Below are positions 5,722 to 22,089 of a stretch of DNA of 23,302 nt, one piece after another. The translations under genes were made by a program, and so were the position numbers. The notes below the pieces were generated by a model. The model worked only from the letters and a program-made list of their open reading frames with translations, had not been told where the DNA came from and did no database searches. The DNA lies in the IMG/VR virus record IMGVR_UViG_3300045952_000373, positions 1 to 23,302 of that record, one strand, 5' to 3'. Positions within the stretch are counted from its first letter, which is position 1. The number at the start of each line of letters is the position of its first letter. The stretch comes from a virus.

Positions 5722-6141
5722 TCAGGCTCCTTTCACTGGTGGTGGAAGTTGTGCAGCATCGATTCGCTTGATTTCGTCCTGCATGTCTTTGGGGAGAATG
5801 CCCTGGATGAACGTCGACATTGTTGTCTCGTTCGTGGCGAGTTGGATGAACAGTTCGTCGAACGCAGCCGACTGTTCGAAATCCTCTCGCAGTTGATCGT
5901 TCTTGATGAACCGTTTGCCGTCATCGGACTTCTGTCCGTACGCCATCAACACGATCTGCTTGAAAAGTTTGATGAGCGCCTTGTGATCCTCCGTTTTGAC
6001 GATCGTTCGGATGAACTCGTCCAGTCCGCCCTTTTCGACGTACTCCAATTCCACGATCTCAGCCCGTGTGAGGTTGAAGTAGAAGGTGTCCGTCTGTTCG
6101 TCACCGTTGAAGTCGGTGTATTTGATGTCTCGCTTAAGCAT
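5722..6141 (-). CDS. Conserved phage protein (MLKRDIKYTDFNG family), 139 aa
   Basis: The start is the ATG at 6141, with AAGGAAAG about 6 nt upstream. The frame stays open further upstream, but that part runs through a terminator-like hairpin and is unlikely to be translated. The protein is soluble and acidic, with the motif order IKYTDFNGDE, FYFNLTRAEI, VLMAYGQKSDDGKRFIKN, and a C-terminal FIQGILPKDM. This family is widespread in phages of Gram-positive bacteria and is usually placed near virion assembly genes. I consider an assembly or chaperone-like role possible but unproven. Its stop overlaps the ribosome site region of the next gene, and it is the first gene of the operon leading to the replication protein. 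Confidence 0.85.
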   Translation of the reverse strand: MLKRDIKYTDFNGDEQTDTFYFNLTRAEIVELEYVEKGGLDEFIRTIVKTEDHKALIKLFKQIVLMAYGQKSDDGKRFIKNDQLREDFEQSAAFDELFIQLATNETTMSTFIQGILPKDMQDEIKRIDAAQLPPPVKGA

Positions 6142-6390: not shown

Positions 6391-6410
6391 TACATTCTCC
6401 TTGTTTGGTT

Positions 6411-6440
6411 CTCCTATTATAGGGTGTGTAAATCTTGCGA
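6411..6440 (-). promoter_or_regulatory. Conserved TATAAT element, copy 1
   Basis: Minus strand reads TCGCA, 14 nt, TATAAT, then AGGAG. It lies directly after the stop of the 251-aa gene and 25 nt before the ATG of the 58-aa gene. Confidence 0.7.
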
Positions 6441-6441
6441 C

Positions 6442-7197
6442 TTACTTCAGGAGACCCTCATAGAGAGGTCTGTAATAGTTGTACTCGAATGCAAGACACG
6501 GTCTTCCGTCCTCTGTCAGGACCGTTGAGAAGTGCAATTCGAGCAGTTTGTCGGACACCCACCCAACGTCCGCAGAGAACTGAGTGGGTTGCAGTCCGAG
6601 AAGGTAGTACAACTCGTCCATCGAGCAAGTATCCTGTTGGAGAAGCTGCTCATTGAGTTTGTTCACCGCCTTCCGCAAGCTCTCCATATCGCTGGTGAAG
6701 TATCGCCCTGTGTAGAGCTCGCAGCAGAGCACGTTCCCTGGCCCTGAAATCAGCATCGGAGGATTTGCGTGGACTTTGTCTTCGGCCAACTTGGCCCGGA
6801 TAGCGGCTTCCTTCTTCTCCCCGATCTCCTCGATGACCTTCTCCTTGTACTCGGAATAAGCACGCTCGGTTAGCGCAAACGCAGCCTGTGCGGCGATTGC
6901 ACGGTTGTGTCCGATACGTGTCGTCCCGATAACGCAAGTAGAGGTCAAGACTACGGCAACAGCCGGCGGAATATAGCACTTCCATACCAACTTTGCGTGA
7001 CGCTTGCGCCTGTCCTTCGGAAACTCCGCCGGTCCTCCTGGATGCCGGTTGTAGTCCGCCATGCGGATGATCTTGTCCGCCTTGAGTGCTGCTTTTCCCG
7101 ACAAATATGCCGTTGCCAGGACTCCAATCACAGATGCGCCTGTGAGCAGCGTTGGAGAGTTGTGACGTACGCTCCTGATGATCGGGTCGAGCTTCAA
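6442..7197 (-). CDS. Phage membrane protein (DUF6353-like), 251 aa, TTG start
   Basis: The chosen start is TTG at 7197, with GAGGT 4 nt upstream, overlapping the stop of the 42-aa gene; no ATG fits without a long overlap. Residues about 13-33 are hydrophobic (TLLTGASVIGVLATAYLSGK) and a second segment lies at about 75-95 (YIPPAVAVVLTSTCVIGTTR). A charged helix follows (RAYSEYKEKVIEEIGEKKE), then a Cys-containing domain with MDELYYLLGL and VGWVSDK. It shares this whole plan with the protein at 4220-5080, so the two are paralogues. Function unknown. The TATAAT element copy 1 begins 1 nt after its stop. Confidence 0.85.
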   Translation of the reverse strand: MKLDPIIRSVRHNSPTLLTGASVIGVLATAYLSGKAALKADKIIRMADYNRHPGGPAEFPKDRRKRHAKLVWKCYIPPAVAVVLTSTCVIGTTRIGHNRAIAAQAAFALTERAYSEYKEKVIEEIGEKKEAAIRAKLAEDKVHANPPMLISGPGNVLCCELYTGRYFTSDMESLRKAVNKLNEQLLQQDTCSMDELYYLLGLQPTQFSADVGWVSDKLLELHFSTVLTEDGRPCLAFEYNYYRPLYEGLLK

Positions 7198-7322
7198 CGG
7201 TACCTCATTTCCCGAACGAAGACCCAGATGAGCCAGAGGCCGCAGGTGAACAGCGTCATGAAGCAGTCTCCCATGAAGTGGAAAAAGCCATAGCGACGCC
7301 GATATGGGTAACAATCTCTCAT
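7194..7322 (-). CDS. Small membrane protein, 42 aa
   Basis: ATG at 7322 has AAAGGAGTAATGAC upstream. The peptide starts MRDCYPYRRRYGFFHF and then has a hydrophobic, Cys-containing segment (residues about 19-35: DCFMTLFTCGLWLIWVF) before REMRYR. The layout basic head, single span, basic tail recurs in small proteins of many actinophages. Its stop overlaps the TTG start of the next gene by 4 nt, so the two are probably translationally coupled. A terminator-like hairpin lies just upstream, between it and the nearest TATAAT element. Confidence 0.75.
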   Translation of the reverse strand: MRDCYPYRRRYGFFHFMGDCFMTLFTCGLWLIWVFVREMRYR

Positions 7323-7344
7323 GTCATTACTCCTTTGCTTTCGA

Positions 7345-7380
7345 CAGAGAAATAAAGAGAGCACTTGTGGTACTCTCTTT
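7345..7380 (-). terminator. Terminator-like hairpin in leader of the 42-aa gene
   Basis: An 11-bp stem (AAAGAGAGTAC paired with GTGCTCTCTTT, one G-U) with a CACAA loop, then ATTTCTCTG. It stands between TATAAT element copy 2 and the 42-aa gene, so it can act as an attenuator or end a small RNA. Confidence 0.7.
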
Positions 7381-7467
7381 TGCCTTCCTGAGAAGTAGCC
7401 ATTTGTTGCACCCCCGTTTCCGTAAGATGCAACTAAGCCCCCGTTTCCGTAAGACCGTTATGGCTTC
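7381..7467 (-). other. Non-coding leader after element copy 2, with direct repeat
   Basis: About 87 nt with no convincing gene. It holds two copies of a 17-nt repeat and ends at the hairpin 7345-7380. The only ATG (at about 7405) lacks a good ribosome site and would read through the terminator. A transcript of about 110 nt from element copy 2 to the hairpin would be a small RNA or an attenuated leader. Confidence 0.5.
7411..7454 (-). repeat. 17-bp direct repeat, period 27
   Basis: TCTTACGGAAACGGGGG (minus strand) occurs exactly at 7454-7438 and again at 7427-7411, with 10 nt between the copies. It lies in the non-coding leader downstream of element copy 2. Confidence 0.9.
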
Positions 7468-7497
7468 CTCTCATTATAGGCGTTGTAAATCTTGCGA
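7468..7497 (-). promoter_or_regulatory. Conserved TATAAT element, copy 2
   Basis: TCGCA, 14 nt, TATAAT, then GAGAGG. It starts right after the stop of the 154-aa gene and faces a non-coding leader rather than a gene. Confidence 0.7.
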
Positions 7498-7498
7498 C

Positions 7499-7963
7499 CT
7501 AGGAATGAATCCCGATTCGCTCGAAGACCCGGTCTCCAGGAAGAGACCGTCCATGATTGATGTGCTTCGAGAAAGTCGAAGGATCTACGCCTGCATCTCG
7601 AGCCGCGGCTGCTTGGCTCAACCAGTAGTTGTCGGTTCCGACTTCACGGGTGATGTAGCTGAGCGCATCGTTGCCGATGTTGTTCGTGGTGATGTTGTTC
7701 GTCGTGTTGTTGATCGTCGGGTTGATGATGTCCCGCCCAGCGTTCAACGCTGCGTTCTGCGTTCCGCCCTCGACCAAAGCCGTATTCACAGCTGACACGT
7801 GTCCGAAATGACGACCCACCTCGAAAATCGCAATGGCAAGTGCTGTGCCACCGCCGACGGCGTACGCCCGCTTGTTCCGTGAAACGTGGCCTGACACCTT
7901 CTTCACGGCTTGGTTCTCCTCAACATTCTTCTTGAGGCGCTCCCATCTGTCTCTCATGGTCAT
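7499..7963 (-). CDS. Membrane-anchored protein with C-terminal helix-turn-helix-like domain, 154 aa
   Basis: ATG at 7963 has AAAGGAGAAATC upstream; a second ATG lies two codons later. The first 30 residues are basic and helical, residues about 33-50 form one hydrophobic segment (AYAVGGGTALAIAIFEVG), and residues 80-98 are a striking Asn/Thr-rich linker (INPTINNTTNNITTNNIG). The last 45 residues resemble a small DNA-binding motif: SQAAAARDAGVDPSTFSKHI followed by GRSLPGD and FERIG, like NUMOD1-type or other helix-turn-helix repeats. I recall related actinophage proteins with the same plan. The likely topology is a membrane anchor displaying a DNA-binding head. Function unknown. It is preceded by a structured leader with a terminator. 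Confidence 0.82.
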   Translation of the reverse strand: MTMRDRWERLKKNVEENQAVKKVSGHVSRNKRAYAVGGGTALAIAIFEVGRHFGHVSAVNTALVEGGTQNAALNAGRDIINPTINNTTNNITTNNIGNDALSYITREVGTDNYWLSQAAAARDAGVDPSTFSKHINHGRSLPGDRVFERIGIHS

Positions 7964-7997
7964 GATTTCTCCTTTGTAGTTAGTTGACCTGGGTGAG

Positions 7998-8040
7998 AAA
8001 AAAAAGAGGCTAGGAAACTCGGCCCATCGAAAACCGAGTT
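7998..8040 (-). terminator. Terminator-like hairpin in leader of the 154-aa gene
   Basis: A 7-bp stem AACTCGG/CCGAGTT is followed, after a 10-nt gap, by eight T residues (minus strand). It lies between element copy 3 and the ribosome site of the 154-aa gene, so it would attenuate that gene or end a small RNA. Confidence 0.6.
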
Positions 8041-8086
8041 CCAGGTGGGTAGGGATCTTCTCCCTACACTTTCGTGTCTCACCTTC
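7998..8086 (-). ncRNA. Candidate structured leader RNA with three-way junction
   Basis: Downstream of element copy 3 the minus strand can fold as a closing stem AGGTG/CACCT (8084-8080 with 8047-8043), enclosing ACAC-GAAA-GTGT (GNRA-type tetraloop, 8077-8066) and AGGGA-GAAGA-TCCCT (8065-8051). The terminator hairpin 8040-8016 and a T8 tract follow. An alternative pairing of ACCTGG (8046-8041) with CCAGGT near 7992-7987 would compete with the closing stem. No gene fits here. The fold was drawn by hand, not computed. Confidence 0.45.
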
Positions 8087-8116
8087 CTCTCATTATAGGA
8101 CGTGTAAATCTTGCGA
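8087..8116 (-). promoter_or_regulatory. Conserved TATAAT element, copy 3
   Basis: TCGCA, 14 nt, TATAAT, then GAGAGG. It begins 3 nt after the stop of the 77-aa gene and opens the structured leader of the 154-aa gene. Confidence 0.7.
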
Positions 8117-8119
8117 CCC

Positions 8120-8353
8120 CTAGGAAACGATCTGGATGAACTGCATTTCCTCCTTGACCATCGCCTTGATTTGTTCCGCCGTTAGATGCTCCTGTGACGC
8201 CCGCACAAGAATATCGCCCATCGCATTAGCCATCAGAGGCTGCGTTGCGATGATCTTCCGCCTTACCGACCTGTGGTACCACTTCGCCCCAATGACGAAT
8301 CCAGTGGCAAATATGAGAATGCCACCGCCAACTATCAACGCTTCTTCTCCCAC
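8120..8353 (-). CDS. Small membrane protein, 77 aa, GTG start
   Basis: The start is GTG at 8353 with an AGGA-type site upstream, inside the 3' end of the 45-aa gene (19-nt overlap). Residues about 6-25 are hydrophobic (LIVGGGILIFATGFVIGAKW), followed by a basic KWYHRSVRRK stretch and a helical cytoplasmic tail ending MVKEEMQFIQIVS. One membrane span is likely, with the N-terminus outside by the positive-inside rule. No family recognised. It is co-transcribed with the 45-aa gene and followed directly by TATAAT element copy 3. Confidence 0.75.
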   Translation of the reverse strand: MGEEALIVGGGILIFATGFVIGAKWYHRSVRRKIIATQPLMANAMGDILVRASQEHLTAEQIKAMVKEEMQFIQIVS

Positions 8354-8472
8354 CGTTCCTGATCCTTTCTTCTCTTGTTTTCTGTTTGGATCTTGAAGAC
8401 TTCCCAGGCGACGTCGATGATCAACAGCCCGGCTAGGACGACAACAAGAAATTCCATTGCATCAGCACTCAT
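8335..8472 (-). CDS. Small membrane protein, 45 aa
   Basis: ATG at 8472 is preceded by a clear GGAGG site 4 nt upstream. The peptide begins MSADAMEFLVVVLAGLLIID, so residues about 6-24 form a membrane segment, and the tail is strongly basic and polar (ENKRRKDQERWEKKR). This is a single-span protein with a charged cytoplasmic tail, a shape also seen in small lysis or superinfection-type proteins, although nothing here proves such a role. It follows a terminator hairpin with no TATAAT element of its own, and overlaps the next gene by 19 nt. Confidence 0.72.
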   Translation of the reverse strand: MSADAMEFLVVVLAGLLIIDVAWEVFKIQTENKRRKDQERWEKKR

Positions 8473-8483
8473 TGTTCCTCCAG

Positions 8484-8513
8484 GGAAAAGATCAAAGCAC
8501 TTGTGTGTGCTTT
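8484..8513 (-). terminator. Rho-independent terminator
   Basis: A perfect 9-bp stem TCAAAGCAC/GTGCTTTGA with an ACAA loop and TCTTTTC tail. It follows the 56-aa gene; no TATAAT element lies between it and the 45-aa gene. Confidence 0.8.
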
Positions 8514-8523
8514 GACCGTAGAG

Positions 8524-8694
8524 TCATTTGTTGACTCGGTAATTGACCTGCTTGGCGTAAGCCCGACGGCCCTGCGCTGCGCTCAATGCATCGATCAGCT
8601 TCGCTGCGGCAACAACCGCAACGGAGCAGACTGCAATGACCTCAACGGGGTGCTCCTCGAACTTCTTCTTCAAGTTGGCCCATCCCTTTTTCAT
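8524..8694 (-). CDS. Small membrane protein, 56 aa
   Basis: The start is ATG at 8694 (MKKGWANLKKKFEEHP). The frame is open further upstream, but that part is the translated TATAAT element and terminator, so it is not coding. AGGAGG, which is part of element copy 4, is the ribosome site 7 nt upstream. Residues about 17-36 are hydrophobic (VEVIAVCSVAVVAAAKLIDA) and the ends are basic. A single-span membrane protein is likely. It is bounded by terminators on both sides and forms a one-gene cassette. Confidence 0.8.
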   Translation of the reverse strand: MKKGWANLKKKFEEHPVEVIAVCSVAVVAAAKLIDALSAAQGRRAYAKQVNYRVNK

Positions 8695-8702
8695 TTCAAT
8701 AC

Positions 8703-8732
8703 CTCCTATTATAGGGGTTGTAGATCTTGCGA
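8703..8732 (-). promoter_or_regulatory. Conserved TATAAT element, copy 4
   Basis: TCGCA, 14 nt, TATAAT, then AGGAGG serving also as ribosome site, 13 nt from TATAAT to the ATG. The six T residues of the preceding terminator abut it. Confidence 0.75.
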
Positions 8733-8759
8733 AAAAACCAAAGCACTTGTGTGCCTTGG
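8732..8759 (-). terminator. Rho-independent terminator
   Basis: A 9-bp stem CCAAGGCAC/GTGCTTTGG (one G-U), ACAA loop and TTTTTT tail running straight into element copy 4. Confidence 0.85.
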
Positions 8760-8767
8760 CTTTGAGT

Positions 8768-8986
8768 TCAGCTTTCAAATGCCGCCGAATTGGCGACCAT
8801 GAAACGTCCGTCTTCAGATGCCCAACCTCCGGTTGGTTCGTCCATCAACCGCTGGAGCTGGTCGTTGGTCATCGTGAAGATGTGCTGCCGCTTGTTTACG
8901 ACAATCATCGTCCCAATGATTCCAACGCCAACGCCGACGGCCACTGGGGCCCAACGCTTGGCGATTCTCTGAATCTTGTCTTTCAT
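8768..8986 (-). CDS. Small membrane protein, 72 aa
   Basis: ATG at 8986 follows AGAAGGAGAAGTC. The peptide begins MKDKIQRIAKRWAP, has a membrane segment at residues about 14-30 (PVAVGVGVGIIGTMIVV) and a polar tail containing TMTNDQLQRLMDEPTGGW, SEDGRFM and a short C-terminus. A single-span protein with its tail in the cytoplasm is likely. The leader from TATAAT to the start is 34 nt, longer than in neighbouring cassettes. A terminator follows its stop within 10 nt. No family recognised. Confidence 0.8.
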   Translation of the reverse strand: MKDKIQRIAKRWAPVAVGVGVGIIGTMIVVNKRQHIFTMTNDQLQRLMDEPTGGWASEDGRFMVANSAAFES

Positions 8987-9016
8987 GACTTCTCCTTCTT
9001 ATGGTTTGAGTTCTTT

Positions 9017-9045
9017 CCTCATTATAGGAGGTGTGAAAGTTGCGA
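9017..9045 (-). promoter_or_regulatory. Conserved TATAAT element, copy 5
   Basis: TCGCA, 14 nt, TATAAT, then GAGG. It lies 34 nt before the ATG of the 72-aa gene and follows a terminator at once. Confidence 0.75.
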
Positions 9046-9046
9046 G

Positions 9047-9074
9047 AAAAAACCAAAGCACTTGCGTACTTTGG
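9047..9074 (-). terminator. Rho-independent terminator
   Basis: A 9-bp stem CCAAAGTAC/GTGCTTTGG (one T-G pair) with a GCAA loop and TTTTTT tail, next to element copy 5. Confidence 0.85.
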
Positions 9075-9081
9075 CTTTGGT

Positions 9082-9246
9082 TCACTTTTCGTTCTTGTTC
9101 TTCCGAAAACCGACCTTGACCGTCACCATGCGACGCACCGCAATGACCCCAAGTGTGATGGCAGCTCCGGCAATGACGCCTCGATGCCATCCATCCTTGT
9201 AGCCCAGCGTGTACGACGCAAGCAACTGTGTATGGTTGGATTCCAT
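9082..9246 (-). CDS. Small membrane protein, 54 aa
   Basis: ATG at 9246 is preceded by AAAAGGAGAACGAA, and element copy 6 lies 26 nt upstream. The peptide starts MESNHTQLLASYTLGYKDGW, has a hydrophobic segment at residues about 22-37 (RGVIAGAAITLGVIAV) and ends with a basic tail (RRM...RKNKNEK). A single-span protein is likely. Its unit is closed by a terminator 8 nt after the stop. No family recognised. Confidence 0.75.
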   Translation of the reverse strand: MESNHTQLLASYTLGYKDGWHRGVIAGAAITLGVIAVRRMVTVKVGFRKNKNEK

Positions 9247-9267
9247 TTCGTTCTCCTTTTTGTAGTT

Positions 9268-9297
9268 CTCCTATTATAGGACGTGTGAATCTTGCGA
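9268..9297 (-). promoter_or_regulatory. Conserved TATAAT element, copy 6
   Basis: TCGCA, 14 nt, TATAAT, then AGGAG; a second ribosome site (AAAAGGAG) serves the 54-aa gene downstream. Confidence 0.75.
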
Positions 9298-9323
9298 AAA
9301 AGAAAGAGCCCCCACAGGGGCTC
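9298..9323 (-). terminator. Rho-independent terminator
   Basis: A perfect 7-bp stem GAGCCCC/GGGGCTC with a TGTG loop and TTTCTTTTT tail, abutting element copy 6. Its stem differs from the others in the array. Confidence 0.8.
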
Positions 9324-9327
9324 AATC

Positions 9328-9702
9328 TCAATCATCATCATCCGTACGCCAATCTATATCTGGATGTGGTCCATGCCAGTCTTCTAGCCATTCATCAAAG
9401 TCTAGCGGTTCGGAGTTTTCATCAACCAACGCATTTGTGCCATCGCCAACGTAAAACTCTTGTTCATAATCGCGATAGTACTCCATCGCCCATTCTCTTT
9501 CGGCTCTGTCTTCTTCAGCACAAAAGCGATCAAACTCTAGTTTTTTGACGAAAGCTCTATACTTTGGGTATGCAATTCCGATCACGATAACCTTTGTTAT
9601 GACCAGTCCTGTTACGACCGCATACCTTCTAGCATTACGCCTGAAGTGGTTCTTGATCTTGCTTACTCTTGTTTCAGCTCTTTCTTCTTCATTCTCGCTC
9701 AT
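9328..9702 (-). CDS. Membrane protein with long acidic tail, 124 aa
   Basis: ATG at 9702 follows AAAGGAGAACGAA. The N-terminus is acidic then basic (MSENEEERAETRVSKIKNHF, RRNARR), a membrane segment spans residues about 27-45 (YAVVTGLVITKVIVIGIAY), and the remaining 75 residues are very rich in Asp, Glu, Trp and Tyr, ending in four Asp. The codons are AT-rich compared with neighbours (TCA, AGA, TCT and CAA on the minus strand are frequent), which suggests a recent arrival. A single-span protein with a cytoplasmic acidic domain is likely. The acidic tail could mimic nucleic acid, a guess without motif support. Confidence 0.8.
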   Translation of the reverse strand: MSENEEERAETRVSKIKNHFRRNARRYAVVTGLVITKVIVIGIAYPKYRAFVKKLEFDRFCAEEDRAEREWAMEYYRDYEQEFYVGDGTNALVDENSEPLDFDEWLEDWHGPHPDIDWRTDDDD

Positions 9703-9724
9703 TTCGTTCTCCTTTCTGAGCGTT

Positions 9725-9754
9725 CTCTCATTATAGGAGGTGTGGAATTTGCGA
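9725..9754 (-). promoter_or_regulatory. Conserved TATAAT element, copy 7
   Basis: TCGCA, 14 nt, TATAAT, then GAGAG; 27 nt from TATAAT to the ATG of the 124-aa gene, which has its own AAAGGAG site. Confidence 0.75.
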
Positions 9755-9781
9755 AAAAACCATAGCCCTTGTGGACTATGG
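9754..9781 (-). terminator. Rho-independent terminator
   Basis: A 9-bp stem CCATAGTCC/GGGCTATGG (one T-G pair), ACAA loop and TTTTTT tail, abutting element copy 7. Confidence 0.85.
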
Positions 9782-9789
9782 CTTTTCTT

Positions 9790-9984
9790 TCAGTTCTCGA
9801 TCAACTTCTGCAACCGCAGATACTCCAGAAACGCATCTGTGTCCTCGATTGTCCTCTTGATGCTGGCGATCCTGTTCTTGCGCGCCTTCCGAATCCGGTA
9901 GCGACGCATGCTTTCACGTCCAGCAATGAGCACTGCGAGTCCACCGACCGTTCCGATCAGTATCTTCTTGTCTTGATTGTTCAT
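9790..9984 (-). CDS. Small membrane protein, 64 aa
   Basis: ATG at 9984; the AGGAGG of element copy 8 is the ribosome site 7 nt upstream. The peptide starts MNNQDKKILIGTVGGLAVLI, so residues about 7-22 form a weak membrane segment, followed by a strongly basic region (RRYRIRKARKNR) and an amphipathic helix (DAFLEYLRLQKLIEN). A membrane-bound protein with a cytoplasmic helix is likely. A terminator follows 8 nt after the stop, which makes this a one-gene cassette. No family recognised. Confidence 0.8.
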   Translation of the reverse strand: MNNQDKKILIGTVGGLAVLIAGRESMRRYRIRKARKNRIASIKRTIEDTDAFLEYLRLQKLIEN

Positions 9985-9992
9985 CTCATTAC

Positions 9993-10022
9993 CTCCTATT
10001 ATAGGAGGTGTAGATTATGCGA
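9993..10022 (-). promoter_or_regulatory. Conserved TATAAT element, copy 8
   Basis: TCGCA, 14 nt, TATAAT, then AGGAGG as ribosome site of the 64-aa gene. In this copy the sequence around TATAAT is a perfect palindrome (CCTCCTA...TAGGAGG). Confidence 0.75.
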
Positions 10023-10034
10023 ATTGTTCTCTAG

Positions 10035-10057
10035 AAATCTCCCCCCGGGGATTTTTT
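10035..10057. terminator. Weak terminator-like hairpin
   Basis: AAATC and CCCC pair with GGGGATTT around a short loop. The T run follows the stem on the plus strand, so it best fits termination of plus-strand transcription; on the minus strand the tail is poor. It lies just upstream of element copy 8. Confidence 0.35.
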
Positions 10058-10220
10058 GGCCTTGAAAACGGGAATTCCTTCGGAAAGGCCTCTGTAAGCC
10101 TCTAGGAGACGAGAAGCGAATTTTCCGCACCCAACATACCCCCCAACCCTGTTTCGTCGCTTAGAACGCATTCTAGAGGGGTGTTTCTAACGAAAAGGGC
10201 AAAAAATATAAGAATTGACC
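10058..10220 (-). other. Non-coding region between terminator and element copy 8
   Basis: About 160 nt without a convincing gene (longest plausible start gives 11 codons). It contains nested inverted repeats (TTAGAA...TTCTAA, with TAGAA-CGCA-TTCTA inside), a G-rich minus-strand tract and CCTTTCCGAAGG. I believe similar sequence occurs at this place in other actinophages, but cannot confirm it. A structured RNA, origin or regulatory site are all possible. Confidence 0.4.
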
Positions 10221-10264
10221 GACAAAAACAGAAAGGCCATGCTGAATTCTCTTCAACATGACCT
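10221..10264 (-). terminator. Strong terminator ending the structural gene run
   Basis: A 12-bp stem (AGGTCATGTTGA paired with TCAGCATGGCCT, two G-U pairs) and a T-rich tail (TTTCTGTTTTT) 40 nt after the stop of the 95-aa gene. Confidence 0.85.
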
Positions 10265-10304
10265 CTCCGTCTTTGTTCAACCCTTTCGGTTGATCGTCCT
10301 CTTG

Positions 10305-10592
10305 TTACCTCGTTCTGAGGAACATCTGTTTTGCGTTGGACGTCACGACATGCTTCTGTTCGTAGGCGACCATGATGAGGATTCCCGCCAAGTTTCCCGC
10401 AACGATGGCCATTGTGTCGCTTGTTACCGGCTTCCGAGCATTCTCGCTCTTCATCCGGCTCAATCGTTCCAATTGATCCATCAGTTTCAGGAACTCTGGG
10501 TCTTCCACACCATAGGTGCGCATTCCTTCCAGAACCTTCTCGATCGGTTCATCGTAAATCGATGTCCGCTCCTTCTTCAGTAGCTTGAACAC
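10305..10592 (-). CDS. Conserved actinophage membrane protein, 95 aa, GTG start
   Basis: The start is GTG at 10592 after AAAGGAGAGTC. The N-terminal 50 residues are a charged helical region (KKERTSIYDEPIEKVLEGMR, then a Leu-rich stretch), followed by SDTMAIVAGNLAGILIMVAY, a membrane segment at residues about 60-78, and EQKHVVTSNAK. I recall this combination, an N-terminal helical part then AGNLxGILIxVAYEQKHV, as common in actinophages between tail and lysis or membrane genes. Its function is unknown to me. It is the first gene behind a TATAAT element (copy 9) and is followed by a strong terminator. Confidence 0.85.
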   Translation of the reverse strand: MFKLLKKERTSIYDEPIEKVLEGMRTYGVEDPEFLKLMDQLERLSRMKSENARKPVTSDTMAIVAGNLAGILIMVAYEQKHVVTSNAKQMFLRTR

Positions 10593-10610
10593 GACTCTCC
10601 TTTCTAGTTT

Positions 10611-10640
10611 CTCCTATTATAGGAGTGGTGAAATATGCGA
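10611..10640 (-). promoter_or_regulatory. Conserved TATAAT element, copy 9
   Basis: TCGCA, 14 nt, TATAAT, then AGGAG; 23 nt from TATAAT to the GTG start. It lies 8 nt after the stop of the holin-like gene with no terminator between. Confidence 0.75.
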
Positions 10641-10648
10641 AAGGCGAA

Positions 10649-18861: not shown

Positions 18862-19721
18862 CAGATATCGACCCAGATCCCCCCAGTGATGCCAGTTGGC
18901 GCTGAGGCTTGGACGAATATGAACGCCACTTTGTCGTACGTCACTGCATCAGCACCGATTTTGGCATTGGTCACAGCACTCGATGCGAGTTCGCTTGCGC
19001 CAACTGCACCAGCAGCAATCTCAGATGCACCGATGGCGTCCGGAGCAATCTGAGACGCCGTGATTGTGTTGTCAGCGATGTACCCAGCACTGACTGTCTT
19101 TGCTGCAAGCTTCGCACCGGTGATTGTGCCGTTGAGAATCGCTGTGGCAGTTACAGCGTTGGCTGCAAGTTCGGACGAGCCAACAGCTCCTGCAGCGATG
19201 GCATCCGCCGTGACGGAGTCAGTTGCGAGAGCAGCTGCGGTTACTGCATCAGCAGCAAGCTTCGTCGATGTCACAGCACCAGTACCGAGCTCTGCTGCAG
19301 TCACAGCACCAGCTGCAAGCTCTGACGCTGTGATGGCATCCGGAGCAATCTGCGAAGCAGTGATTGTGTTGTCAGCCATCTTCGCCGCCGTGACGCTCTT
19401 GTCTGCGAGCTTCGCTGTCGTGACATTGAGGTCCTTGATCTTGACGGTTGTGACTGCGTTGGCGGCAATCATCGTCTCCGTCACTGCATTGGCAGCTTGC
19501 ACCGTTGCGACAGCAGCTGCGATCGCTGCATTCATCTGCGCCGTCGTGACTTCGCCCATCGGTCCTTGGATACCTTGCGGTCCACGGACATTCCCAGCAT
19601 TGATCGGCGTGTTGTTGCGCATCTTGAGAATGAGGTCGTTGCCGACAACGTCACCATCGACGATGGTGGTCTCTTCGATTTCGAGCATCCGCTCTGCGGT
19701 GAATCCTGTTACAGTTGCCAT
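18861..19721 (-). CDS. Tail fibre with collagen-like patch and exact decapeptide repeats, 286 aa
   Basis: ATG at 19721 overlaps the previous stop by one base. After a 40-residue head domain there is a short collagen-like patch (GPQGIQGPMG, residues 47-56). Residues about 78-267 are an unbroken series of about 19 ten-residue units of the form (D/G)AVTAxxLAx with no insertion or deletion; TITASQIAPDAI occurs twice. The tail ends AFIFVQASAPTGITGGIWVD, a common closing motif of phage fibres. The repeat probably folds as a trimeric beta-structured shaft. It is likely part of the tail tip or side fibres. Confidence 0.82.
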   Translation of the reverse strand: MATVTGFTAERMLEIEETTIVDGDVVGNDLILKMRNNTPINAGNVRGPQGIQGPMGEVTTAQMNAAIAAAVATVQAANAVTETMIAANAVTTVKIKDLNVTTAKLADKSVTAAKMADNTITASQIAPDAITASELAAGAVTAAELGTGAVTSTKLAADAVTAAALATDSVTADAIAAGAVGSSELAANAVTATAILNGTITGAKLAAKTVSAGYIADNTITASQIAPDAIGASEIAAGAVGASELASSAVTNAKIGADAVTYDKVAFIFVQASAPTGITGGIWVDI

Positions 19722-20536
19722 CAGCTGATGTCCTCCTCGTTCTTGTCGCTGCTGCTGATTTCGTACGTTTCCGGGTCCAAATATTCAGCGTTGGCGTTGT
19801 TGATCACGAACGTCGTCTCATCCACCATGACGATGTAACCCTCACGAGCTGTTTCAGCAGACCAAGTGCCATCGCCATGATCGGTGATGATCATGCGGTC
19901 CCACTTGCGAATATAACTGATAAAGCCCTTAAGGGAAGGCATGGTTGGGATCTCGTCTTCGCCCGGTCCACCATAGAGAATTGTCTGAATATCCTCGATA
20001 AGCCACTCGTCCATCTTGCGGCTGTCAATGATGACATGTGATGTGGGGCGATAGTTGTCTACTGGCTCTGGAACCGAGGTAATGGACCACTCGAATTCCG
20101 ACGGTTCGACCTCCAATGAGAGAGTTCGGTATGACCTGGTTGATGGAACAGCTGTCAGATTCCACAGCATGTGGATCTTGAACCACTCATTCCCGTGTCC
20201 ATCGACGGTTTTCGTCTGATAGGACATGTGGAACAACTTTTGTGGTTGGTCAGCCATGTAGAGCCCAGCCTGCTCCTCTCCGATTCCCTCGTATTCGAGG
20301 AATTCGTCGGGATAGGTGAAAGCTCTGAGACTTGCGGTGAAATCACCAGCGATGATGATGTCGTTGAACTTGACACCATCGTAGTAGACCGATTCAAGGG
20401 AAGTTGTCGATTCGACATCGATCGACGTGAGGCCATTCCAGGCAACGCCACCACCGTCGGGAAAGTACAGAACTCCCTTGTTGATGCCTGTCTCGAAGAG
20501 CCGATCTTCCATCTGGTCCCAAACGAGGATTGGCAT
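19721..20536 (-). CDS. Major-tail-protein paralogue with C-terminal extension, 271 aa
   Basis: ATG at 20536 has AGGAGG 4 nt upstream. The first 200 residues match the major tail protein at 21113-21772: both begin MP-LVWD, then ETG, GVLY-PD, GVAWNGLT, AFTYPDEF, RPTS, IDSR and IYGG. It adds about 60 residues with WDRMIITDHGDGTWSAET and GYIVMVDETTFVINNANAEY. It probably forms a minor tube or tail-tip ring with the same fold, or decorates the tube. It is AT-richer than the major tail protein. Confidence 0.82.
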   Translation of the reverse strand: MPILVWDQMEDRLFETGINKGVLYFPDGGGVAWNGLTSIDVESTTSLESVYYDGVKFNDIIIAGDFTASLRAFTYPDEFLEYEGIGEEQAGLYMADQPQKLFHMSYQTKTVDGHGNEWFKIHMLWNLTAVPSTRSYRTLSLEVEPSEFEWSITSVPEPVDNYRPTSHVIIDSRKMDEWLIEDIQTILYGGPGEDEIPTMPSLKGFISYIRKWDRMIITDHGDGTWSAETAREGYIVMVDETTFVINNANAEYLDPETYEISSSDKNEEDIS

Positions 20537-20544
20537 AGAACCTC

Positions 20545-21090
20545 CTAGCCGGACGTGTTGTACTTTGCCCTTCGCTCAGCGTTTAGTTCTCTGTTACGTC
20601 TAGCGATCTCTCCTCTAGACATCTTTGATGGCTTCTGCTGTTTGATGTTACAGATACGAATCAAAGAGAAGAGTCTGTTTAGATGCCAGGTTTCACAATC
20701 GAACGGGATGGTGAAGGCGACCATCCAGTAATAGATCAACTCCGAGGTGATGACCTCTTGCCGCCCTCTTCTTTGTTCGGGCAGCTTTCCAAACGTTGTC
20801 GCTGTCTGTTTGGACTCGATGTAGGTGTTGATCTCTTCGATGTTCTCTTTTGTAAGCCGTTCCCAGATGTTTGTTGGAACTTCTTGGTCGAGAATCATCA
20901 TCCGTATGTACCAAAGAAGCTCTTCTGGAGTTTTGGTTTCAGTGGCCAAGAACGGTTTCTCGAATTTTGACTCCCATTTTGACAGCGAGAGTAGAGAATG
21001 CTCAAGGTGCAAAACAAAGTCCCCAACCGTCGAAAACTCCGACGTCTCTTCGTTGAACACCTCTTCACCAGACAGTACTAGTGTTAGCAT
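20545..21090 (-). CDS. Tail assembly chaperone-like protein, 181 aa
   Basis: ATG at 21090 follows AGGAG. The sequence LEHSLLSLSKWESKFEKPFL, then LLWYIRMMI, ELIYYWMVAFTIPFDCETWH and a Lys/Arg-rich tail, fits a phage protein family of Gram-positive hosts that is usually annotated as tail assembly chaperone. It lies between the two major-tail-like genes. No slippery heptamer or second frame was seen, so a programmed frameshift is not supported. The start region forms one arm of a perfect 16-bp inverted repeat (20987-21101), which could control its translation. Its GC content is lower than its neighbours. Confidence 0.72.
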   Translation of the reverse strand: MLTLVLSGEEVFNEETSEFSTVGDFVLHLEHSLLSLSKWESKFEKPFLATETKTPEELLWYIRMMILDQEVPTNIWERLTKENIEEINTYIESKQTATTFGKLPEQRRGRQEVITSELIYYWMVAFTIPFDCETWHLNRLFSLIRICNIKQQKPSKMSRGEIARRNRELNAERRAKYNTSG

Positions 21091-21101
21091 TCTCTACTCT
21101 C
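20987..21101. repeat. Perfect 16-bp inverted repeat across a start codon
   Basis: GAGAGTAGAGAATGCT at 20987-21002 is the exact reverse complement of 21086-21101. The second arm holds the end of the ribosome site and the ATG (21090) of the chaperone-like gene; the first lies in that gene's codons about 30-35. In the transcript the arms can pair with an 83-nt loop and hide the start. Confidence 0.9.
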
Positions 21102-21112
21102 CTGTCGATTGG

Positions 21113-21772
21113 TCAGGCTCCGGAGCTGAACGCTGCGATGACCTCGTCTGGGGTCGGCAGCTTTGCAGCCAAGGTTGCCCCGCCGTAGATGATCTCCTCG
21201 AAGGCCGTGAGGTCGGCCGCATCGACAAGGCGGCTGTCGATGACGATGAGGGAGGTGGGGCGGAGGCCGGTGACCGGCACTGGGGTGGTGGAGACCTCCC
21301 AGCTGAAGGTGATGGCCTCGGGGCTGTCGTTGATGGTGTTGTAGGCCTTCTCCGAGGGGGAGGCCTGACACCCGTAGACGAGGTGGAGCTTGTATCCGTG
21401 GTCCTCGCCCTCGAGGTCGTTACCCACCCGGGTGCGGTACGAGAGGCCGAAGATCTTGCGGACCTGTTGGCCAACGGCGACGCCGACCTCAGGGCTCACG
21501 AGACCGTCGAACACGGAGAACTCGTCCGGGTAAGTGAACGCCTCGATGGTGCACCCGAACTCCTCGGCGGAGAACAGGTTGAGGTACTTGATGTTGTCGG
21601 CGTACTGGGCCGTCGGCTCAGCGCCGGAGGGGCTCTCGGTAACGGTCGTGAGACCGTTCCAAGCAACTCCCGTGGCGTAGACGCCGGTGGCGTCCGGGAT
21701 GTAGAGAACGCCATGATCGACACCGGTTTCGTAGAACCGCTCGCCGATGGAGTCCCAAACGAGTGCTGGCAT
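21113..21772 (-). CDS. Major tail protein, 219 aa
   Basis: ATG at 21772 follows AAGGAG. The protein begins MPALVWDSIGERFYETG and continues with GVAWNGLTTVTESPSGAEPT, a FGCTIEAFTYPDEF segment, GLSYRTRVGNDL, RPTSLIVIDSR and a closing FEEIIYGG. This is the standard actinophage major tail tube protein plan. The gene is clearly GC-rich with C- or G-ending codons, as expected for a very highly expressed gene. It would polymerise to form the tail tube. Confidence 0.88.
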   Translation of the reverse strand: MPALVWDSIGERFYETGVDHGVLYIPDATGVYATGVAWNGLTTVTESPSGAEPTAQYADNIKYLNLFSAEEFGCTIEAFTYPDEFSVFDGLVSPEVGVAVGQQVRKIFGLSYRTRVGNDLEGEDHGYKLHLVYGCQASPSEKAYNTINDSPEAITFSWEVSTTPVPVTGLRPTSLIVIDSRLVDAADLTAFEEIIYGGATLAAKLPTPDEVIAAFSSGA

Positions 21773-21783
21773 GTTGCTTCTCC

Positions 21784-22089
21784 TTAGAAGAAGAGTCGGA
21801 AGACGTCGTGGTTGAGGTTGTCTGCTGTGTAGAAGCGGTCATAGACACACAAAGGCATCTTCATGATTGCTTCATGAATGGCGTCATCTGGATCTTCAGC
21901 GATCACAGTTACCAGGTAACGCTTCTTCAATGCGTACGGTGCATCATCGGCAAACTGAGTAACCGTGTTGTCACGCTTGTAGACAATCGCCGGATACTTC
22001 ATTTGCACGGTTGGTGGTGGCTGGAAGTAGACGTTTGGTGATCCAAGAATCTCGACCAAGCGAGCCTGGAGCTCAAGCCGTTGGGCCAT
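21784..22089 (-). CDS. Tail terminator-like protein, 101 aa
   Basis: I chose the internal ATG at 22089 (MAQRLELQARLVEIL), with GGGGAG 8 nt upstream; the frame is open for 17 further codons, but those overlap the upstream gene. The motifs LGSPNVYFQPPP, MKYPAIVYKRD, FADDAPY and DNLNHDVFRLFF belong to a phage family usually annotated as tail terminator or head-tail connector. It is placed between connector and major tail genes, as expected. It would cap the tail tube. Confidence 0.8.
   Translation of the reverse strand: MAQRLELQARLVEILGSPNVYFQPPPTVQMKYPAIVYKRDNTVTQFADDAPYALKKRYLVTVIAEDPDDAIHEAIMKMPLCVYDRFYTADNLNHDVFRLFF

Follow-up and report, generated by a model that had tools for sequence, protein, structure and literature searches.

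A conserved, covarying mRNA hairpin that spans the ribosome site and start codon of a tail-region gene next to the major tail protein gene of diverse phages

The viral DNA analysed here, positions 1 to 23,302 of the IMG/VR record IMGVR_UViG_3300045952_000373 (the window, 23,302 nucleotides (nt) in all), encodes a long mRNA hairpin at the start of a gene of unknown function, named here gene X, which directly follows the major tail protein (MTP) gene. The hairpin is conserved and covarying, it forms in the mRNA, and its presence is linked to the MTP neighbour. It is rather likely that it acts in cis as a conserved brake on translation in the late tail mRNA, stepping expression down from MTP to gene X. 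The elements concerned are located as follows.

20545..21090, minus strand: gene X, an open reading frame (ORF) of 181 amino acids, PHROG 4338 (unknown function; match E 1.8e-72)
21113..21772, minus strand: MTP gene, PHROG 2645, directly upstream of gene X
21086..21101, minus strand: 5' arm of the inverted repeat, -11..+5 of gene X, covering part of the Shine-Dalgarno sequence, the spacer, the ATG and codon 2
20987..21002, minus strand: 3' arm of the inverted repeat, within gene X codons 30-35 (EHSLLS motif)
21088..21090, minus strand: start codon ATG of gene X, paired
20998-21000, minus strand: His31 codon in the 3' arm, pairing partner of the start codon
21099..21103, minus strand: Shine-Dalgarno sequence AGGAG, all bases paired once the helix is extended
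21102..21106, minus strand: 5' side of the outer helix (GACAG), from RNA folding
20981..20985, minus strand: 3' side of the outer helix (CTGTC), with one bulged base between it and the 3' arm
20971..20982, minus strand: TCAAAATGGGAG (TCA AAA TGG GAG, the SKWE codons), with near-invariant silent sites

The initial annotation had described a perfect 16-bp inverted repeat with arms 83 nt apart, and the repeat search recovered exactly this (16/16 complementary, loop of 83 nt). The placement of one arm over part of the ribosome site and the ATG was borne out by the ORF and arm coordinates, and a chance match is indeed very unlikely, as a simple base-composition estimate gives an expectation of about 0.0013 perfect repeats of at least 16 bp with loops up to 300 nt in the window. 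The helix proved longer than claimed, since five outer pairs (21102-21106 with 20981-20985) extend the stem to 21, and the mRNA strand folds far better than shuffled sequences (-65.1 kcal/mol versus -39.0 +/- 3.9 in 200 shuffles, z -6.65, no shuffle as good). Stable pairing covers both the Shine-Dalgarno sequence and the start codon, as in translational hairpins that sequester a start. The z value at the gene X start ranged from -4.0 to -9.3 in the 12 phages checked; the mean for 95 other gene starts was -0.4 and that for next-gene starts -0.56, and start hairpins as a general trait were therefore rejected. No match to Rfam covariance models was obtained at E <= 1 across 20400-21800.

The covariation analysis was performed on 47 aligned relatives (rows) and 17 pairs. 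In this set 95.2% of the cells are paired, double changes occur in 9 of the 17 pairs, and the 55 double-changed cells compare with 16.0 +/- 3.2 in shuffles, none of 500 shuffles reaching 55. A shift of the register by one to three columns lowers pairing to 37-58%. Where gene X is adjacent to MTP, its start codon is paired with the His31 codon of the EHSLVSLSKWE motif at any spacing (84-105 nt), and the two codons change together: ATG-CAT was counted 36 times, GTG-CAC 18, ATG-CAC 5 and GTG-CAT 2, these being sequences rather than events (Fisher p 3.8e-9, overstated because the sequences are related). Between loci L004 and L005, which differ at 54 positions in 573 nt, six of the differences are the two sides of three pairs, with compensatory double changes at -6/+98, 0/+92 and +3/+89. 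Over the 41 nearest pairs, some near-copies included, changes on both sides numbered 62, where 24.5 were expected and 2000 draws gave at most 37. Across the 47 relatives pairing is thus kept by compensatory change, as in start-sequestering hairpins. One-sided changes, which the initial annotation had named as grounds for refutation, do occur, scattered within the conserved group at 46/697 cells, whereas loss of the whole hairpin was seen where the gene context had changed.

The choice of silent codons was compared with a synonymous null. The MTP group has 17.6 of 20 positions paired versus 14.9 expected, so that pairing is raised beyond the needs of the protein, and the group in which gene X overlaps the chaperone gene shows no excess (11.1 paired versus 11.7 expected). 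G.U cells (107) outnumber A.C/C.A cells (26), which places the structure in the mRNA strand; a DNA-level palindrome was rejected because of this roughly fourfold ratio. The covariation, synonymous-codon, register and G.U tests agree on a real, selected hairpin that hides the ribosome site and the start codon.

The presence of a strong hairpin (<= -31 kcal/mol) was then related to gene context in non-redundant loci, with upstream genes assigned by tblastn and Pfam. A strong hairpin is present in 51/51 loci in which at most 45 nt separate MTP and gene X and in 5/7 with MTP farther away, but in only 2/36 loci where gene X follows a Phage_TAC_17 chaperone gene with a gap (20 more are intermediate), in 0/4 where its start overlaps the chaperone stop and in 0/2 where minor tail genes are inserted upstream. 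The shuffle-based z follows the same group order (-7.0, -4.7, -2.9, -0.4). All 17 cultured actinophages examined have the hairpin, with gene X directly after MTP; it was not found in the Lactococcus phages P162 and CHPC971. The gap between MTP and gene X is 22 nt from stop to start codon in the window, 12-42 nt in most hairpin loci and 102-162 nt in six loci that keep the hairpin. Loss of the hairpin is seen where gene X overlaps the chaperone stop, where other genes are inserted upstream or where a long gap follows MTP, and the exceptions, which nest within the hairpin clade of the tree, are read as losses for that reason. A simpler rule, under which a chaperone gene upstream would exclude the hairpin, was rejected when more loci gave graded, partial hairpins.

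Two other elements were observed in the longer gaps. In L016 (2905-2990), which has no start hairpin, a terminator-like GGGGGAGA..TCTCCCCC hairpin lies in the 92-nt gap between MTP and gene X. The 148-162 nt gaps of L023, L027, L031, L039 and L046 share a conserved element, perhaps a structured RNA, of the form CCCAGGTAAAGG..GCGGGG..CTCTCCGGG..ACCGG.CTAC, with no Rfam match.

According to the translational brake reading, the start region of gene X (Shine-Dalgarno sequence, spacer, start codon and codon 2) pairs with codons 30-35 of the same gene and, in the finished mRNA, would shut ribosomes out of gene X; MTP would be translated freely because its stop codon is outside the core stem, and gene X would be scarce relative to MTP as a result. 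The hairpin probably keeps the gene X protein scarce beside the abundant tail-tube protein (MTP), and we infer both the repression and its step-down purpose. The core stem would hardly open at equilibrium, so initiation would need ribosomes or timing. Translation of gene X perhaps takes place mainly on nascent mRNA: the protein would be made chiefly during mRNA synthesis, before the 3' arm, which lies about 90-105 nt further on, emerges, and a ribosome passing codons 30-40 could reopen the start for the next one. This nascent window comes from folds of the growing transcript, in which -12..+3 is predicted to be about 0.43 unpaired as long as the 3' arm has not emerged and 0.04 unpaired thereafter (0.51 and 0.00 for the window sequence). 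As an equilibrium fold prediction, the start is open before its partner is transcribed and closed after, in agreement with the nascent-only translation that has been put forward for the MS2 maturation gene. An excess of gene X may be harmful, by analogy with TP901-1, in which a forced G-T fusion leads to non-infectious particles (PMC4493119).

Several points weigh against the brake reading. The need for little gene X is an assumption. Phylogeny-corrected pair tests, with few independent pairs, go in the same direction and none is significant alone; the test for the start codon gave 3.0 changes the same way and 0.0 the opposite way, of 4. In L016 and L048 gene X follows MTP at gaps of 92-102 nt, and a strong hairpin is lacking. 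Partial hairpins are common in loci where the chaperone gene precedes gene X, which makes the link to MTP a graded one, and the lower G + C fraction of these loci (GC 0.41 versus 0.54 in the MTP group) weakens the energies, so that the energy comparison is partly one of composition.

The main rival explanation is translational coupling by RNA unfolding, in which ribosomes finishing MTP would melt the hairpin and the output of gene X would be proportional to that of MTP; we regard it as possible but tentative. It is in keeping with the gene order of the hairpin group, in which gene X comes straight after MTP, mostly at the short gaps given above, and with outer pairs that come within a few nt of the MTP stop. 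A terminating ribosome covers about 10-12 nt beyond the stop codon, and as the MTP stop is outside the core stem such a ribosome would mostly touch the outer pairs only; this and the six hairpin-bearing loci in which 102-162 nt separate the MTP stop from gene X weigh mildly against coupling. Hidden starts opened by RNA unfolding are well documented (PMC12548453), but in the filamentous-phage genes VII/IX a stop codon moved well upstream of the hairpin abolished coupling, according to the same review.

A regulated switch, in which a phage or host factor, perhaps at TCAAAATGGGAG, would open or lock the hairpin at a given stage, appears unlikely. It would account for the silent sites of TCAAAATGGGAG, which hardly vary among phages of several bacterial groups, beyond the needs of the stem: TCA is used in 60/60 sequences (9.9 expected), AAA in 61/61 (22.7 expected) and GAG in 60/61, and TCAAAA is kept in 17/17 loci with GC > 0.58. 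Only the first two bases of TCAAAATGGGAG pair, as the last two of the outer helix, and the remainder is unpaired. However, the string is retained where the hairpin is lost (L016, L024, L056), so it may serve something else and be unrelated to any switch, and no consistent pairing partner or conserved partner sequence for it was found within -500..+600. An RNA partner pairing with TCAAAATGGGAG was rejected on the latter ground. A broader proposal combines both elements in a two-part RNA device of phages of several bacterial groups, in which a nascent-only start-locking hairpin together with TCAAAATGGGAG would replace the frameshift in setting the ratio of gene X to MTP; here TCAAAATGGGAG would pause the ribosome or bind a factor, holding the 3' arm open. 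We consider this proposal speculative and rather unlikely.

Still less probable is an mRNA processing or stability element, either an RNase III cut or a cap against 3' decay of the MTP message, with the occlusion of the start being secondary. A helix of up to 21 pairs right after the MTP stop suits either role, and a lower level of gene X relative to MTP would follow. Nevertheless, the register is fixed, with the start codon exactly opposite its His31 partner and both codons covarying, while a pure processing helix could lie anywhere in the gap, and the six loci have the hairpin 102-162 nt from MTP. Finally, a mere coincidence of the purine-rich Shine-Dalgarno sequence with protein-constrained, pyrimidine-rich EHSLVS codons, conceivable because the protein motif is highly conserved and the synonymous null alone gives 14.9/20 paired, is very improbable and already disfavoured by pairing above that null, by covariation in non-coding bases and of the start and His codons, and by a z of about -7 for the MTP group when compared with shuffles of the 5' arm.

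Two further tail genes were located in the window.

19721..20536, minus strand: second MTP paralogue, PHROG 2645, downstream of gene X
5722..6141, minus strand: tail assembly chaperone, Pfam Phage_TAC_17, displaced

Duplicated MTP genes on both sides of gene X are found in the window and in most of the cultured actinophage relatives. In Arthrobacter phage Stayer (L095, 5605-5770) the second MTP paralogue has a long start hairpin of its own (z -6.4), in which the Shine-Dalgarno sequence pairs with ESPS codons, and weaker forms occur in L084 and L086. The chaperone gene of the window sits far downstream of the tape measure gene, and in gut and Lactococcus relatives it lies between MTP and gene X.

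The initial annotation had called gene X chaperone-like, a label that rests on position and is not upheld, the clear tail chaperone of the window being the one at 5722-6141. No chaperone family or fold match was found for gene X in Pfam, NCBIfam or PDB, and a chaperone identity by fold was rejected because a good model (pLDDT 90.7) has no PDB match and only uncharacterised viral proteins as relatives. Homologues were found in 240 cultured-phage records and >180 IMG/VR loci; among the records listed all are annotated as 'hypothetical protein', save one record without annotation. One scan of genome contigs gave a single locus, on a Fervidobacterium metagenome-assembled genome contig. Alternative ways of expressing the region were also considered. 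Readthrough or hopping from MTP into gene X was rejected because the gap occurs in all three frames, and a frameshift from the chaperone gene because no slippery heptamer is present in the 120 nt before gene X in the chaperone-preceded loci listed, where overlaps are mostly 4-82 nt. An overlapping ORF starting at the internal AAAATGGG was rejected as an explanation, its length being 5-93 codons without conservation.

Elsewhere in the window (6395-10641) an intergenic element is present in seven copies (6395, 7452, 8071, 8687, 9252, 9977 and 10595), each before small minus-strand ORFs. On the minus strand it reads approximately TTCGCA..nTACAC..CCTATAATAGGAG and resembles a -10 box running straight into a Shine-Dalgarno sequence.

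Tailed phages produce one tail protein in hundreds of copies and its neighbour in few from a single mRNA, and the means known for this are mainly frameshifts of the lambda type and the strength of start sites. In many cultured phages of Streptomyces, Arthrobacter, Gordonia and Curtobacterium, a conserved RNA structure seems to serve this end, and there the hairpin is directly testable. The covariation of start and His codons and the loss of the fold that tracks gene rearrangement represent natural experiments, and the results indicate an RNA element that lacks annotation (no Rfam family) and an unstudied tail-region gene that looks essential.

Start-sequestering hairpins as a class are already well known. 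In DNA phages, the hairpins that sequester the ribosome binding sites of mobE of phage Aeh1 and of the T4 lysozyme gene e are close known cases. Those govern a homing endonuclease and a lysis gene, whereas the gene X hairpin is long-range, has a coding 3' arm and is kept across very diverse phages. A hairpin family with a long-range coding arm, a covarying start codon and dependence on the upstream gene was not found in Rfam or in the open-access papers surveyed.

Coupled phage genes with a hidden start include MS2 coat-lysis and filamentous VII-IX (PMC12548453). Like them, gene X is the downstream gene in a structural operon and has a hairpin across its ribosome site, but the MTP stop is outside the core stem and, in six loci, 102-162 nt away. 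In the finished RNA of MS2, folding conceals the start of the maturation protein, and access to it has been proposed for nascent strands only (PMC6071253, citing Groeneveld et al. 1995). The gene X start is similarly hidden in the finished RNA; unlike in MS2, an RNA phage with the partner in the leader, its partner is inside its own gene, and nascent access is a fold prediction. In contrast to the lambda-type G/GT frameshift, gene X forms an ORF of its own with a separate start codon, and a slippery heptamer was not found in the loci described above; like that frameshift, the hairpin would be a translational device that keeps output of the second protein, encoded between MTP and the tape measure, low.
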